A stretch of DNA of 35,172 nucleotides from Thermoplasmata archaeon (GTDB lineage: Archaea > Thermoplasmatota > Thermoplasmata > Lutacidiplasmatales > UBA184), in assembly GCA_030041735.1 (NCBI GenBank), contig JASIBA010000098.1:1-35172 (forward strand), written 5' to 3'. Position 1 is the first letter of the stretch. The number at the start of each line of letters is the position of its first letter. Below, piece after piece: positions 25,510-32,211 of this stretch. The position numbers and the translations under genes were made by a program. The notes under the pieces were generated by a model. That model had not been told where the DNA came from and made no database searches. It worked only from the letters and a program-made list of their open reading frames with translations.

Positions 25510-25854
25510 TCAGCCGCTCGACCGGTCGCGGAGCCATCGCTTGGCCCCGCGCAGCGTGCCCCACGTGCGCCGGGTCGTCAGGGTCGTCGTCCGATCCGCG
25601 AGCGGGGCGTTCCAGGCCGACCGCGCGCGGGCGGCGGTGCCGTGGTCGATCTCGGCGATCGCCCGCCGCCCGTCGATGCGGACGATGCGGAACCGTTCGG
25701 AGACCCCCGCGCGGTCGAGGCCGGCGCGGAGCGCGGTCTCCCACCAGCGCGGGGTCAGCGCGGGAAGGTGTTCCCCCGCCGCCTCGATCCCGAGGTAGCG
25801 GGGGCGCCGGGTCGGCGGCCTACCGGACGAGGTCGATGACTTCCTCGGACTCAC
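25510..25854 (-). CDS. rnp2: Probable RNase P protein component 2 (Pop5/Rpp14 family)
   Basis: RRPRYLGIEAAGE...RFRIVRIDGRRAIAEIDHGTAARARSAWNA...RTWGTLRGAKRWLRD resembles the Pop5 pattern including the C-terminal SGTIRAAK-like motif; GTG 25854 overlaps the end of ftsZ. Confidence 0.6.
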   Translation of the reverse strand: MSPRKSSTSSGRPPTRRPRYLGIEAAGEHLPALTPRWWETALRAGLDRAGVSERFRIVRIDGRRAIAEIDHGTAARARSAWNAPLADRTTTLTTRRTWGTLRGAKRWLRDRSSG

Positions 25855-26977
25855 CGGCCGCGTAGCCTCCCTTCTGCCCGAGGAGGCTCGTCGCACGGAC
25901 GCCCGTGATGATCAGGAGCACCTTGATGGTGTTCTCCATGTCGGGGGAGTTCTCCACCGAGCAGCCCCAGATGATGCGGGCGCGCTTCGAGATCTTGCCG
26001 CCGACCAGCGCCGCGGCCTTCTCCGCCTCGCTGACCGTCATGGTTTGACCGCCGATGACGCGCACCAGCGCGCCCGTGGCGTCCTTGAGCTCGACCGAGC
26101 CGAGTAGGGGGCTTGTGAGGGCCTCGGTGACTGCCTCGCTGACCCGGTCCGTCGCGCTCTCGCTCTCGCCGAGCCCGATCAGCGCGACCCCGCCGTCCTT
26201 CATGACGGTCAGAATGTCCGCGTAGTCGAGGTTGACAAGGCCGGGCTTCGTCACGATCTCGGTGATCCCCTTGATCGCGGTCATCAGGACCGCATCCGCG
26301 AGCTTGAACGCGGAGTCGAGCGGCATGCGGGGGACGAGCTCGAGCAGCTTGTCGTTCTGGATGACGATGGTCGTGTCGCAGACGCGGCGCAGGCGCTCCA
26401 AACCGTCCTTGGCCTGCTCCATCCGGGCCGCGCCCTCCCCGGCGAACGGGAGAGTGACGACGCCCATCGTGAGCGCGCCCGCCTCCTTCGCGAGTCGGGC
26501 GACCAGGTGCGCCGATCCGGTCCCGGTGCCCCCGCCCATGCCCGCCGTGACGAACACGATGTGCGCGCCGTTCAGGAAGTGGCGGAGCTCCTCCTCGTTC
26601 TCCCGGGCGGCCTCCTCGCCGACCTCGGGCCGCGCGCCAGCGCCGAGGCCCTTCGTGGCCCGCCGTCCGATCAGGATCTTGCGCGGCGCGTGGATCGTCA
26701 GCAGGTGCTTCGCGTCGGTGTTGATGGCGCACATCTCGGCGCCCTGGATCCCTTCCTCGACACAGCGGTTGATCGTGTTGGAGCCGCTGCCGCCGCAGCC
26801 GACGATGCGGATGTTGACCTTCAGGGTCTCCGCCAGCTTCGCCAGCTCGGCGTCGTCCGCGCTCCCGCCGTACTGCCCGGCGGGCTCAGACGCCTTCTTC
26901 TCCTCGGTGAGGGACTGGTTCTCTTGGTGCTTGGCGATCGCTTCCTGGATGATGGACTTCATCGGTGGTTCTCCCAT
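25820..26977 (-). CDS. ftsZ: Archaeal FtsZ cell-division GTPase (start ATG 26977 or 26962)
   Basis: NIRIVGCGGSGSNTINR, INTDAKHLL, tubulin signature FVTAGMGGGTGTGSAHLVA, VIQNDKLLELV, LVNLDYADILTVMKDGGVALIGLGES. Confidence 0.95.
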   Translation of the reverse strand: MGEPPMKSIIQEAIAKHQENQSLTEEKKASEPAGQYGGSADDAELAKLAETLKVNIRIVGCGGSGSNTINRCVEEGIQGAEMCAINTDAKHLLTIHAPRKILIGRRATKGLGAGARPEVGEEAARENEEELRHFLNGAHIVFVTAGMGGGTGTGSAHLVARLAKEAGALTMGVVTLPFAGEGAARMEQAKDGLERLRRVCDTTIVIQNDKLLELVPRMPLDSAFKLADAVLMTAIKGITEIVTKPGLVNLDYADILTVMKDGGVALIGLGESESATDRVSEAVTEALTSPLLGSVELKDATGALVRVIGGQTMTVSEAEKAAALVGGKISKRARIIWGCSVENSPDMENTIKVLLIITGVRATSLLGQKGGYAAGESEEVIDLVR

Positions 26978-27741: not shown

Positions 27742-28674
27742 ATGGCGACCCCGGAGCCGAGCGGAGGGCTGTCGTTCCGACGCGAGGACCTCGGGCTCCT
27801 CGCGCTGGTCGCGCTCGTCTGGGGCTCGGCGTACATCTTCATCAAGCAGGGGCTGGTCTACGGCGCCTCGCCGCTCCTGTTCGCCGGCGCGCGCTACGGG
27901 CTCTCGGCGCTCGCGTTCTTCGCCCTCGCCGCCGCGCAGGGCGTCGCGTGGCCGCAGCGCCGGGCGGCCGGCGTCTCGGCCCTTATCGGCGGGACGCTGA
28001 TCATCGGCGGGTACGGCGGCCTCCTCTACTGGGGCGAGCAGTACACGACCGGCGGGTACGCCGCCGTCCTCGCCTCGACCGCGCCGATCCTGACCGTCGC
28101 GATCGCGTTCGTCCTCCTGCCGAACGAGCGGCTCGGGGCCCGGGGCCTGGCCGGCATGGCGCTCGGGCTGCTCGGCGCGGTCATCCTCGTCGCCCCGCAG
28201 CTGTTCGGGAGCGCGGTCGGTACCTGGCCAGGGCCTCTGTACGTCGGGGGCGCGTACGTCGCGGCGGCGCTCGGCACCGTGCTGCTCCGCCGGTACGGCG
28301 GAGGCGCCCAGGGGCTCTGGCAGATCGGCGCGCAGTTCGGCGCGTCCGCGGTCCTGCTGCTCGCGGTCGCCGCCGTCCTGCCCGTGCCCGAGTCGCTGCC
28401 GCTGAGCGAGGGCGTCGTGCTCTGCCTGGTCGCGCTCGTCGGGCTCTCCTCCGTGCTGGGCTATTTCGGATACTTCCGACTTCACCACCGGGTCGGCCCG
28501 GTGCGGGCGAACCTCGTCGCCTACCTCGCGCCGATCACCGGGCTGTTCGTCGGCTCCGGCCTCTTCGGCGAGCCGTTCACGCTCTACGAGCTCGCCGGCT
28601 TCGCGATCGTGCTCGTCGGGGTCACCCTCGTGCTGCTCGAGCGCGCGCGCCCGGCCCCGGCCGCCGCTCGCTGA
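27742..28674 (+). CDS. EamA/DMT-family transporter
   Basis: Ten-TM pattern; ALVWGSAYIFIKQGLVYGASPLLFAGARYGLSALAFF...YLAPITGLFVGSGLFGEPFTLYELAGFAIVLVGVTLVL. Alternative GTG start 27724. Confidence 0.9.
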   Translation: MATPEPSGGLSFRREDLGLLALVALVWGSAYIFIKQGLVYGASPLLFAGARYGLSALAFFALAAAQGVAWPQRRAAGVSALIGGTLIIGGYGGLLYWGEQYTTGGYAAVLASTAPILTVAIAFVLLPNERLGARGLAGMALGLLGAVILVAPQLFGSAVGTWPGPLYVGGAYVAAALGTVLLRRYGGGAQGLWQIGAQFGASAVLLLAVAAVLPVPESLPLSEGVVLCLVALVGLSSVLGYFGYFRLHHRVGPVRANLVAYLAPITGLFVGSGLFGEPFTLYELAGFAIVLVGVTLVLLERARPAPAAAR

Positions 28675-28712
28675 GCGCGCGGATTTATCTCGGGGCGGCG
28701 GGTGGGACGCCC

Positions 28713-31700
28713 GTGGAGTCGTACTTCCGAGCGATCGAGTCGGAGGTCGACCGGGCCTACGCCGTCGCGGAGCGGGCGCGGCAGGAGGGCTACGATCCCG
28801 AGACCCATCCCGAGATCCCGCGCGCCCAGGACATGGCCTCGCGCGTGGAGAAGCTCCTGGCGCACCTCGGCATCGACGGCATCGCCGCGGAGATCCGCGC
28901 CCTCGCGGCGCGCCTCCCGCGCGAGGAGGTCGCGGTGGTCGTCGCGCGTCGGCTCGCGACCGACCCGGCGCGCGGCGGGACCATCGCCGAGCGGGTCGAC
29001 GCGGCGCTCCGCGTCGGGCTCGCAATCCTGACCGAGGGCATCCTGGTCGCGCCCCTGGAAGGGCTCGCGGAAGTGCACGTGCGCGCCGGGGCGGACGGCC
29101 GCTCGCACATCGAGCTGTACTACGCCGGTCCGATCCGGGCGGCCGGGGGGACCGCGCAGGCCCTGAGCGTGCTGCTCGCCGACATCGTGCGCCGCGACCT
29201 CGGGCTCGCGCCGTACCACGCGGACGCCGCGGAGGTCGGCCGCTTCCAGGAGGAGATCCCGCTCTACAAGCACTTCCAGCACCTGCAGTACAGCCCGACG
29301 TCGGAGGAGATCGACCTCGTCGTCCGGAACGTCCCGGTCGCGATCTCGGGCGAGGCGACCGAGGGCGACGCCGAGGTCAGCGCGTTCCGCAACCTCCCGC
29401 GGGTCCGCACGAACGGGATCCGCGGCGGGGCCTGCCTCGTGATCGCCGAGGGACTCTGCCAGAAGGCCGCGAAGCTCCACAAGGTGGTGGAGAGCCTCGG
29501 CATCGACGGCTGGGAGTTCCTCGACCGGCTCGGCCACCATGCGGCCGACGAGGAGGACGATCGCGTCCCGAAGTACCTCCAGGACGCCGTCGGGGGTCGC
29601 CCCGTGCTGGCGCACCCGAACCGCCCCGGCGGGTTCCGGCTCGTCTACGGGCGCGCGCGCACCTCGGGACTCGCCGGCTGCGCGGTCAACCCCGCGACCA
29701 TGCGGGTCCTCCAGGAGTTCGTCGCGATCGGCACCCAGGTCAAGCTCGAGTACCCGGGGAAGGCGGCCGCGATCGGGATCTGCGACACGATCGAGGGCCC
29801 GATCGTCGAGCTCGCCGACGGCACGGTGACCGCCGTCCACGACGTCGACCGCGCCCGCGCACTTGGACCGTACGTCCGCCGCATCCTCGATCTCGGCGAG
29901 TTGCTGGTCTCCTTCGGCGAGTTCGCCGAGAACAACCGCCCGCTCGCGCCGGGCGCCTACAGCCTCGACTGGCACGCGGCGGAGCTCGCCGCCGCCGGCG
30001 CGCCGGTCGCGGCGGGCCTCGCGCCCGAGGACTACGAGTCCGCCGTGCGGCTCGGTCGCGCGCACGGGGTCCCGCTCCACCCCCGCTGGGGACTGTTCTG
30101 GCACGATCTCGCGCCGGCAGAGATCCGCGCGCTCTCCGAGTTCGTCGAGCAGACCGGGCGGTGGGTCGACGGAGCCCTCGAGATCCCGGACGACCCGGCG
30201 TGGCGCGAGGCGCTCGCCCGGCTCGGCTTCCTCTCCGCCCCGGTCGAGGGCCCGGCCCGTCGCGGGGAACCGGACCCGAGCGCCGCGCTGCTCGGCGGCC
30301 TCGGGCTCGGCCGGGACGGCGCGACGATCGTCCGGCGCACGCCGCTCGAGCCGGTCGACCTCGACCCGCTCGCCTACGCGAGCCGGCTGGCCGGCGTCCC
30401 GCTCCGAGCTCGCGCCCCGTCCCGCATCGGGGCGCGCGTCGGCCGGCCGGAGAAAGCGCACCAGCGCGTGATGCAGCCGAACGTCCACGCCCTGTTCCCG
30501 GTCGGGACCGCCGGCGGGACCACCCGGTCGGTGACCGAGGCGGCTCGGCGCACGATCGCGCACGGCACGCGCGTCGAGCTCGGGCTCCGCGCCTGCGCGG
30601 CGTGCGGCCGCACGACCGTCTGGGCGCGCTGCGGCTGCGGCGCGCACACCACGCCGACCGGTCGCGTCCTCCCGCAGGAGCTACCGGTGGCCCGGATCTG
30701 GGCCGAGGCGGTCCAGCGTCTCGGCCTCGCGAAGGTGCCGGCCGTCAAGGGCGTCAAGGGGCTCGCCTCGCCGGGGAAGTGTCCCGAGCCGCTCGAGAAG
30801 GGGATCCTCCGGGCCTCGCACGCGATCTCCGTCTACCAGGACGGGACCGCCCGGTTCGACCTCACGGACCTGCCGCTCACGCACTTCCGACCGGGCGAGA
30901 TCGGGACCGCGCCGGAGCGCCTCGCCGCGCTGGGCTACGCGGTCGACTGGACCGGCGCGCCGCTCGCCGGGCCGGAGCAGCTCGTCGAGCTCGCGCCGCA
31001 GGACGTCGTCGTCTCGCGGTCGTGCGGGGAGTACCTCGTCCGCCTCGCCCAGTGCGTCGACGACGAGCTGGTGCGGCTCTACGGGCTGCCCCCGTTCTAC
31101 CGGGCCGAGCGGCCCGACGACCTGGTGGGCCACCTCGTGGTCGCGCTGGCGCCCCACACGTCGGGCGGCGTGGCGGCCCGCCTCATCGGCTTCACGGACG
31201 CCGAGGCGTGCTTCGCGCATCCGGTCCTCCACGCGGCGAAGCGCCGGAACTGCGACGGCGACGAGGACTCGGTGACGCTGCTCCTCGACGCGCTCGTGAA
31301 CTTCTCGCGGGCGTACCTGCCGGACAGCCGCGGCGCGCTCATGGACAAGCCGCTCGTGCTCACGACGCGCCTCGACCCGGTCGAGGTCGACAAGGAGGCG
31401 CTGAACGTCGACGTCGGGGTCGGCTACCCGCTCGCGGTGTACCGCGCCGCGGCGGAGCGCCGCCCGCCGAAGGAGGTCGCCGGGCTGGTCGACTCGGTCG
31501 GCCGCCGGCTCGGCACCGACCGCGCGCTGCGGGACTACGGGTTCACCCACGACACCCGCGACATCGCGGCCGGTCCGGTCCGCTCGGCCTACCGGGGCCA
31601 GCGCGGCATGCAGGACACGGTTGAGCGGTCGGTCGTGCTCACGAGCCAGATCCGCGCCGTGGACGTCGCGGAGGCGGTGACCCTCGTGCTGAACGGCCAC

Positions 31701-32054
31701 TTTCTCCGCGACGTGATGGGGAACCTGAAGAGCTACGCGACGCAGCGCTTCCGCTGCAAGAGCTGCGGCACGTCGTACCGGCGCCCGCCGCTCGACGGGC
31801 GGTGCGCCGCCGAGCGCCCCGGCGGCGGACGGTGCGACGGCGCGCTCGCCTCGACGGTATTCGAGGCGTCGGTCCGTAAGTACCTGCCGCTCTCCCAGCG
31901 CCTGGGGGAGGTCGAGGGGATCACCCCGTACGTGCGCCAGCGGATCCGCCTCCTCGGCGCCTCGATCGCGACGCTCTTCCCGAACCCGACCGCGCAGACG
32001 ACGCTCGATACGTTCGGCGGGCCGGAGCCGCCCGACCGCGGCGGTCCGGGCTAG
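28713..32054 (+). CDS. polC: Archaeal DNA polymerase D large subunit DP2 (no intein)
   Basis: VESYFRAIESEVDRAYAVAERAR, YYAGPIRAAGGTAQALSVLLAD, RNCDGDEDSVTLLLDALVNFSRAYLPDSRGALMDKPLVLTTRLDP, zinc motifs CAACG/CGCG and CKSCG, C-terminal PIP-box-like QTTLDTFG. GTG 28713, atttatct about 26 nt upstream. Confidence 0.96.
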   Translation: MESYFRAIESEVDRAYAVAERARQEGYDPETHPEIPRAQDMASRVEKLLAHLGIDGIAAEIRALAARLPREEVAVVVARRLATDPARGGTIAERVDAALRVGLAILTEGILVAPLEGLAEVHVRAGADGRSHIELYYAGPIRAAGGTAQALSVLLADIVRRDLGLAPYHADAAEVGRFQEEIPLYKHFQHLQYSPTSEEIDLVVRNVPVAISGEATEGDAEVSAFRNLPRVRTNGIRGGACLVIAEGLCQKAAKLHKVVESLGIDGWEFLDRLGHHAADEEDDRVPKYLQDAVGGRPVLAHPNRPGGFRLVYGRARTSGLAGCAVNPATMRVLQEFVAIGTQVKLEYPGKAAAIGICDTIEGPIVELADGTVTAVHDVDRARALGPYVRRILDLGELLVSFGEFAENNRPLAPGAYSLDWHAAELAAAGAPVAAGLAPEDYESAVRLGRAHGVPLHPRWGLFWHDLAPAEIRALSEFVEQTGRWVDGALEIPDDPAWREALARLGFLSAPVEGPARRGEPDPSAALLGGLGLGRDGATIVRRTPLEPVDLDPLAYASRLAGVPLRARAPSRIGARVGRPEKAHQRVMQPNVHALFPVGTAGGTTRSVTEAARRTIAHGTRVELGLRACAACGRTTVWARCGCGAHTTPTGRVLPQELPVARIWAEAVQRLGLAKVPAVKGVKGLASPGKCPEPLEKGILRASHAISVYQDGTARFDLTDLPLTHFRPGEIGTAPERLAALGYAVDWTGAPLAGPEQLVELAPQDVVVSRSCGEYLVRLAQCVDDELVRLYGLPPFYRAERPDDLVGHLVVALAPHTSGGVAARLIGFTDAEACFAHPVLHAAKRRNCDGDEDSVTLLLDALVNFSRAYLPDSRGALMDKPLVLTTRLDPVEVDKEALNVDVGVGYPLAVYRAAAERRPPKEVAGLVDSVGRRLGTDRALRDYGFTHDTRDIAAGPVRSAYRGQRGMQDTVERSVVLTSQIRAVDVAEAVTLVLNGHFLRDVMGNLKSYATQRFRCKSCGTSYRRPPLDGRCAAERPGGGRCDGALASTVFEASVRKYLPLSQRLGEVEGITPYVRQRIRLLGASIATLFPNPTAQTTLDTFGGPEPPDRGGPG

Positions 32055-32113
32055 CGGGGCGCCCGCGCGCGCGATGGGACAGATAAATAGCGGGAGCCGC
32101 GTGCGACCGGCGC

Positions 32114-32211
32114 GGGCTTGTGGGGTAGTCTGGACTATCCTGTCGGCCTTCGAAGCCGACGACCTGGGTTCGAATTCGCGCGACCGCGCGACGGAACTCC
32201 CAGCAAGCCCG
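32114..32211 (+). tRNA. tRNA-Arg (anticodon TCG, 32150-32152) with a 23-nt intron at 32175-32197 (T-loop, position 59/60)
   Basis: Acceptor GGGCTTG/CAAGCCC (7/7 bp), anticodon stem TCGGC/GCCGA with loop CTTCGAA, T-stem CTGGG/CCCAG, T-loop TTCGAA|T after intron removal, G73; CCA not encoded. TATA gataaatag at 32082-32090. Confidence 0.92.
32175..32197 (+). other. Archaeal tRNA intron with canonical bulge-helix-bulge
   Basis: Outer helix CTGGG/CCCAG; 4-bp central helix TTCG (32169-32172)/CGGA (32192-32195, one U-G); 3-nt bulges AAT (32173-32175) and ACT (32196-32198); intron helix TCGCGCG/CGCGCGA. Confidence 0.87.

Follow-up and report, generated by a model that had tools for sequence, protein, structure and literature searches.

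Organization of the tRNA-Arg(TCG) locus

Contig C74 (35172 bases) makes up the stretch of DNA analysed here (the window) and comes from the genome of a soil archaeon of the Thermoplasmata; this genome is a MAG of 1.85 Mb and 84% complete. The window contains, at 32114-32211 (+), a gene for tRNA-Arg(TCG), which reads the arginine codon CGA and carries a 23-nt intron after position 59 (position 59/60). Its conserved upstream neighbour is polC (27948-32054, +), encoding the large subunit DP2 of DNA polymerase D (assigned by Pfam and synteny), and the tRNA gene lies just downstream of polC throughout the family. A gene for FtsZ (25820-26977, -) is located a short way upstream of polC.

The gene is laid out as GGGCTTG...TCGGC CTTCGAA GCCGA...CTGGG TTCGAA (TTCGCGCGACCGCGCGACGGAAC) T CCCAG CAAGCCC G, with the intron in brackets. 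The 5' exon (32114-32174, +; positions 1-59) comprises the anticodon TCG (32150-32152), the 5' strand of the T-stem, CTGGG (32164-32168, +), which forms the outer helix of a bulge-helix-bulge (BHB) motif as seen in the fold and in compensatory changes, and the T-loop bases 54-57, TTCG (32169-32172, +), which form the exon strand of the central 4-bp helix in the RNA fold. Cleavage in the 5' bulge AA^T (32173-32175, +) is predicted after 32174. The intron itself (32175-32197, +) folds into a hairpin (32176-32191, +) of 7 bp (TCGCGCG at 32176-32182 with CGCGCGA at 32185-32191), followed by the intron strand of the central helix, CGGA (32192-32195, +), and the 3' bulge AC^T (32196-32198, +), for which cleavage is predicted after 32197. 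The 3' exon (32198-32211, +) consists of T60, the T-stem strand CCCAG, the acceptor strand CAAGCCC and the discriminator G.

An intron-finder script, which strips candidate BHB introns and then scores the cloverleaf, returned one solution, 32175-32197, whose central, outer and inner helices have 4, 5 and 7 pairs, respectively; the cloverleaf is complete only when this segment is excised, which restores TTCGAAT, the 7-bp acceptor stem and the 5-bp T-stem. The junction has the strict hBHBh' form, i.e. two 3-nt bulges, a 4-bp helix between them and helices on either side (3-4-3); its location after position 59 is not that of a canonical intron (37/38). Folding of the intact gene (-50.4 kcal/mol, z = -4.6) drew the same bulge-helix-bulge. 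A 4-bp central helix together with a 7-bp intron helix arose by chance in 2.8e-5 of trials with a shuffled intron, and at a frequency of 6e-5 in random window stretches of 15-40 nt. The coordinates and anatomy given in the original prediction were reproduced exactly by the script and the cloverleaf, and the BHB junction that it described, with its bulges and helices, by the whole-gene fold.

ARAGORN detects the gene and wrongly places its end at 32189, and its Rfam RF00005 score (24.1 bits) is below the cut-off of 29. The intron models of tRNAscan-SE 2.0 were trained on Crenarchaeota, Euryarchaeota and Thaumarchaeota (PMC8450103).

A predicted TATA box (ATAAATA, 32083-32089, +) precedes the mature 5' end, at about -31 to -25. 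Among 65 genomes of the genus, the A+T content is 100% at -28 and -27, and roughly 10-25% at most flanking positions; read as a promoter, this A/T block, which spans -30 to -25 in a G+C-rich genus, is a TATA box at the expected distance.

Conservation of the intron

A DNA search recovered the gene, including its intron, in 66 of the 78 genomes of the genus, in 64 of them over the full length. The original prediction turned on the lack of a second intact tRNA-Arg(TCG) gene; none was found in the genome itself (84% complete) or in a 100% complete genome of the same genus (G029), and no intronless copy was found in either of these or in the DNA search of the 78 genus genomes. In the 72 copies that were read, other genera included, the 5-bp T-stem is present throughout (72/72), all four central pairs are formed in 70 and three in the other two, and the 3' bulge is ACT in 65. 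The exons are near-invariant; the intron is 23-38 nt long and hypervariable in sequence. Across 27 aligned copies, 99.5% of the structure cells are paired, a value reached in none of 500 shuffles, and compensatory changes were found at all six intron-helix pairs scored. The BHB junction covaries across isotypes as well. Covariance model R1 was built from an alignment of tRNA-Arg(TCG) only (A2); mixed-isotype MAFFT alignments misplaced the introns and were dropped. Alignment across related genomes thus bears the prediction out, since at least 64 genus genomes share the intron and its helix covaries.

That the insert is left unspliced, in a pseudogene or in a tRNA with an enlarged T-loop, is scarcely credible: ARAGORN and Rfam both handle the gene poorly, as they might in such a case, but no other gene for CGA codons was found and these codons are in use (10 of the 194 arginine codons in polC), its stems and promoter are kept in at least 64 genomes, and the BHB survives near-total sequence turnover of the insert. 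As far as sequence can tell, the locus almost certainly holds a functional tRNA-Arg(TCG) gene, present as a single copy, with a BHB intron at 59/60 that is spliced by proteins.

In a sister clade, made up of genus g24 and a closely related MAG (L149, L152, L211 and L216), the orthologous tRNA gene is present at the polC-linked locus with no intron. A DP2 tree groups these four in a single clade (support 99/99), which branches near the family's base, so that gain after the split and loss in that clade are both possible. The genome G038, which belongs to a different family of the same order, has a tRNA-Arg(TCG) with a 13-nt 59/60 intron in addition to a 37/38 intron, which leans towards loss in g24. 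In G038, tRNA-Arg(TCG) and tRNA-Asn (L281:61-161 and L279:61-176) each combine a 37/38 intron with an A/T-rich 59/60 intron of 13-14 nt.

Splicing endonuclease and ligase genes

The original prediction had called for a host endonuclease able to cut at 59/60. The only EndA found in the genome is encoded by a single frame with two PF01974 units, an arrangement shared by nearly every relative searched. Its match to the alpha'2 EndA of A. fulgidus (1r0v; E 1e-28) extends across both units and includes the Tyr, His and Lys positions. The enzyme is of the alpha'2 type, i.e. one polypeptide with two PF01974 units of which the second is catalytic. No Crenarchaea- or ARMAN-specific loop was found in this EndA, in which the region YGSRVGGRLELS is as long as the corresponding YGSEKGDLVTLS of A. 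fulgidus; with no specific loop and two units only, it does not match the broad-specificity (alpha-beta)2 or epsilon2 type. The endA gene is thereby found and classified, and the predicted cutting ability appears to hold: the strict motif at tRNA-Arg(TCG) should suit a plain, two-domain alpha'2-type EndA, and no special type would be needed.

A gene for the RtcB ligase is present in two copies (G000:C4:8638-9942 and G000:C145:266-1570), which score nearly equally in this 84%-complete MAG and represent either paralogues or a binning effect. The genome thus encodes both EndA and RtcB. An assignment of family f8 to the Thermoplasmataceae was rejected, as its EndA has 345-349 aa, versus 289 aa in T. 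acidophilum.

Distribution of 59/60 introns

Every tRNA-like locus of the genome was read, and 13 tRNA genes with a 59/60 intron were found: Arg(TCG), Arg(TCT), Gln(CTG), Asp(GTC), Glu(CTC), Gly(TCC), Ala(GGC), Asn(GTT), Ser(GCT), Ser(GGA), Ser(CGA) and two Lys(TTT). Probable D-loop introns are present in initiator-type Met(CAT), Arg(GCG), Pro(TGG) and both Lys(TTT). Canonical introns interrupt Tyr, Leu(TAA) and elongator Met. The loci G000:C143:11047-11349 (L236), G000:C105:5806-6100 (L241) and G000:C21:6543-6819 (L232) hold two tRNA-Lys(TTT) genes, both of which have a 59/60 intron as well as one in the D-loop, and one Met(CAT) gene with a D-loop intron. The D-loop introns of tRNA-Pro(TGG) and tRNA-Arg(GCG) (G000:C83:5756-5864, L291; G000:C2:2465-2570, L243, L290) start alike (GGGGTAGCTACGGA) and possibly have a shared origin.

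For other genomes, 59/60 introns were counted by covariance searches, which may miss weak cases. Model R2 represents the T-arm with a 59/60 intron (T-arm-only alignment A4, 24 rows, in one of which, Ser(GGA), the 3' end is two bases out of register). G029 and a genome of genus g29 (G243) have an identical set of 14 tRNAs with 59/60 introns; it comprises the tRNAs just listed, Lys being counted once, together with His(GTG) and Leu(TAG). The class-wide search with R2 gave 10-14 such introns per genome in g1, 13 in g25, 14 in g29, 9-10 in g27, 8 in g26, 6 in g28 and 3-6 in g24. Elsewhere, as in other families of the Thermoplasmatota, there are 0-5, and introns found beyond the family are often in Lys(TTT), Arg(CCG) or Arg(TCT). 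In a phylum-wide sample, every genome outside the family has three or fewer. Several R2 matches were obtained outside the family, most of which resemble, by eye, tRNA-Lys(TTT) with a further intron.

Of 14 genomes from Methanothrix, Methanotrichaceae, Archaeoglobales and Methanosarcina, one match each was obtained in four Methanothrix genomes and none in the others, which suggests that isolated 59/60 introns may occur in other Euryarchaeota too. These single 59/60-like matches (L374-L377) are apparently in tRNA-Ser(CGA). The original prediction had described noncanonical introns as less usual in euryarchaeal-type lineages; a noncanonical intron is indeed present here, but the wording understates the case, for this lineage has about 14 such tRNAs.

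Nine of the 13 tRNAs with 59/60 introns in the genome score below the Rfam cut-off, so that the tRNA counts used in grading archaeal MAGs come out too low for this group.

Base 57 and the central helix

The base at position 57 faces the intron strand of the central helix and predicts its partner there. Opposite G57 the intron has C in all of 42 cases. A57 faces T, a normal pair, in five of seven cases in other families, versus G in 27 of 29 cases in the family studied here (f1), which leaves three central pairs and an A-G mismatch adjoining the 5' bulge. The strict four-pair helix is thus formed by the G57 tRNAs and not by the A57 tRNAs of f1. The A57-G introns make up half the set and are those of Arg(TCT), Glu, Ala, the three Ser, His, Leu(TAG) and some Asp; the tRNA-Arg(TCG) of the window has the strict motif and no A57-G mismatch. 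A homodimeric endonuclease can also cleave a relaxed, BHL-like motif (PMC8707768), which would fit the A57-G introns of this family.

Proposed processing and origin of the introns

From the structure, covariation, single copy, promoter, distribution, and EndA and RtcB genes, all read from sequence, we infer cleavage, ligation and a docking-site account of the spread of the introns. The conserved TATA box would direct transcription of a pre-tRNA in which the T-stem, the T-loop TTCG paired with the intron CGGA, and the intron hairpin form the strict BHB; the two-domain EndA would cut after A59 and before T60, i.e. after the second nucleotide of each bulge, and RtcB would ligate A59 to T60 to restore TTCGAAT. 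The anatomy suggests that 59/60 may serve as a general docking site for introns: since nearly all tRNAs have the T-loop TTCR-A-A and a 5-bp T-stem, an intron that starts with a hairpin and ends in YGRAAY would form a BHB in almost any of them. Such a site would account for a single position in many isotypes and for common intron 3' ends, and would fit the presence of an intron there in about 14 different tRNAs of the family.

Alternatively, the 59/60 introns might be a mobile family with recent jumps between tRNA genes, as described for Thermoproteales. We consider this quite unlikely. One position in up to 14 tRNAs and the common 3' end YGRAAY would be expected of such a family, but the 3' end is imposed by pairing to the T-loop, and an intron is on average closer to its counterparts in the same tRNA of other genomes (mean similarity 0.594) than to the introns of other tRNAs in its own genome (0.470, which is also the background value, 0.470, for other tRNAs in different genomes). 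Recent intron transposition was tested by this similarity and was not seen. The identical 14-tRNA set in two genera also argues against recent jumps, and any spread therefore predates these genera. Judged by these comparisons, the 59/60 set is evidently old and vertically inherited.

A further proposal concerns why the introns persist, not how they work. Integrases often use the part of a tRNA gene from the T-arm to the 3' end, and position 59/60 falls within this part; introns might thus be kept for breaking the 3' half of tRNA genes, a usual attachment site of integrating elements, which we regard as rather unlikely.

For the family as a whole, we favour, with some reserve, vertical inheritance of about 14 T-loop introns that were built up with the endonuclease type unchanged, the loopless alpha'2 EndA probably cutting the relaxed 3-bp A57-G motif as well.

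Comparison with known systems

Non-canonical BHB introns, including those at 59/60, are known from Crenarchaeota, Nanoarchaeota and Thaumarchaeota (Marck and Grosjean 2003; Sugahara et al. 2008; reviewed in PMC4090602), and 59/60 is listed among the known non-canonical positions (PMC4090602). Reviews regard non-canonical introns as almost exclusively crenarchaeal, a feature of distantly related, heat-loving archaea with another splicing enzyme, and the enzyme type as driving the intron load (PMC4033280, PMC4090602, PMC3218864). Euryarchaeal tRNA genes are described with one intron at the canonical position (PMC4090602), and the alpha4 and alpha2 endonucleases of Euryarchaeota as cleaving only canonical BHB motifs (PMC4033280). 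The alpha'2 enzymes are called narrow in specificity (PMC6379350, PMC4033280), with EndA of T. acidophilum and A. fulgidus listed as such (PMC6379350), and Korarchaeum, whose enzyme has a specific loop, is singled out as the one alpha2 archaeon in which non-canonical introns occur (PMC4033280).

The type and position of the introns are thus already known; their scale and their pairing with a plain alpha'2 enzyme were not found described. No description of the introns of this family was found in the literature searched, and an earlier report of a single 59/60 intron in Thermoplasmata is possible (Marck and Grosjean 2003). If a loopless alpha'2 enzyme does cut the relaxed motif, the accepted link of endonuclease type or specific loop with intron load fails here; 13-14 T-loop introns per genome, with D-loop introns in some tRNAs besides, together with a plain alpha'2 enzyme make this rule directly testable.

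The introns share with those of Crenarchaeota, Nanoarchaeota and Thaumarchaeota the position, the BHB motif, the size class (11-129 nt), the occurrence of several per genome and of some tRNAs with two; they differ in belonging to Thermoplasmata with a single alpha'2-type EndA that lacks the specific loop, and in the many A57 T-loops with an A57-G mismatch in the central helix. In Thermoproteales the introns are scattered, whereas here one position dominates, with 14 tRNAs at 59/60. Canonical 37/38 introns share the hBHBh' motif and presumably also the route through EndA and RtcB, but are set in the anticodon arm; here, the T-loop lies in the central helix and the T-stem forms the outer helix. 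The closest parallel in enzyme type, the alpha2 EndA of Korarchaeum cryptofilum (PMC4033280), is likewise a one-gene, dimeric-type endonuclease found together with non-canonical introns; it is reported with a specific loop, which the EndA described here does not have.
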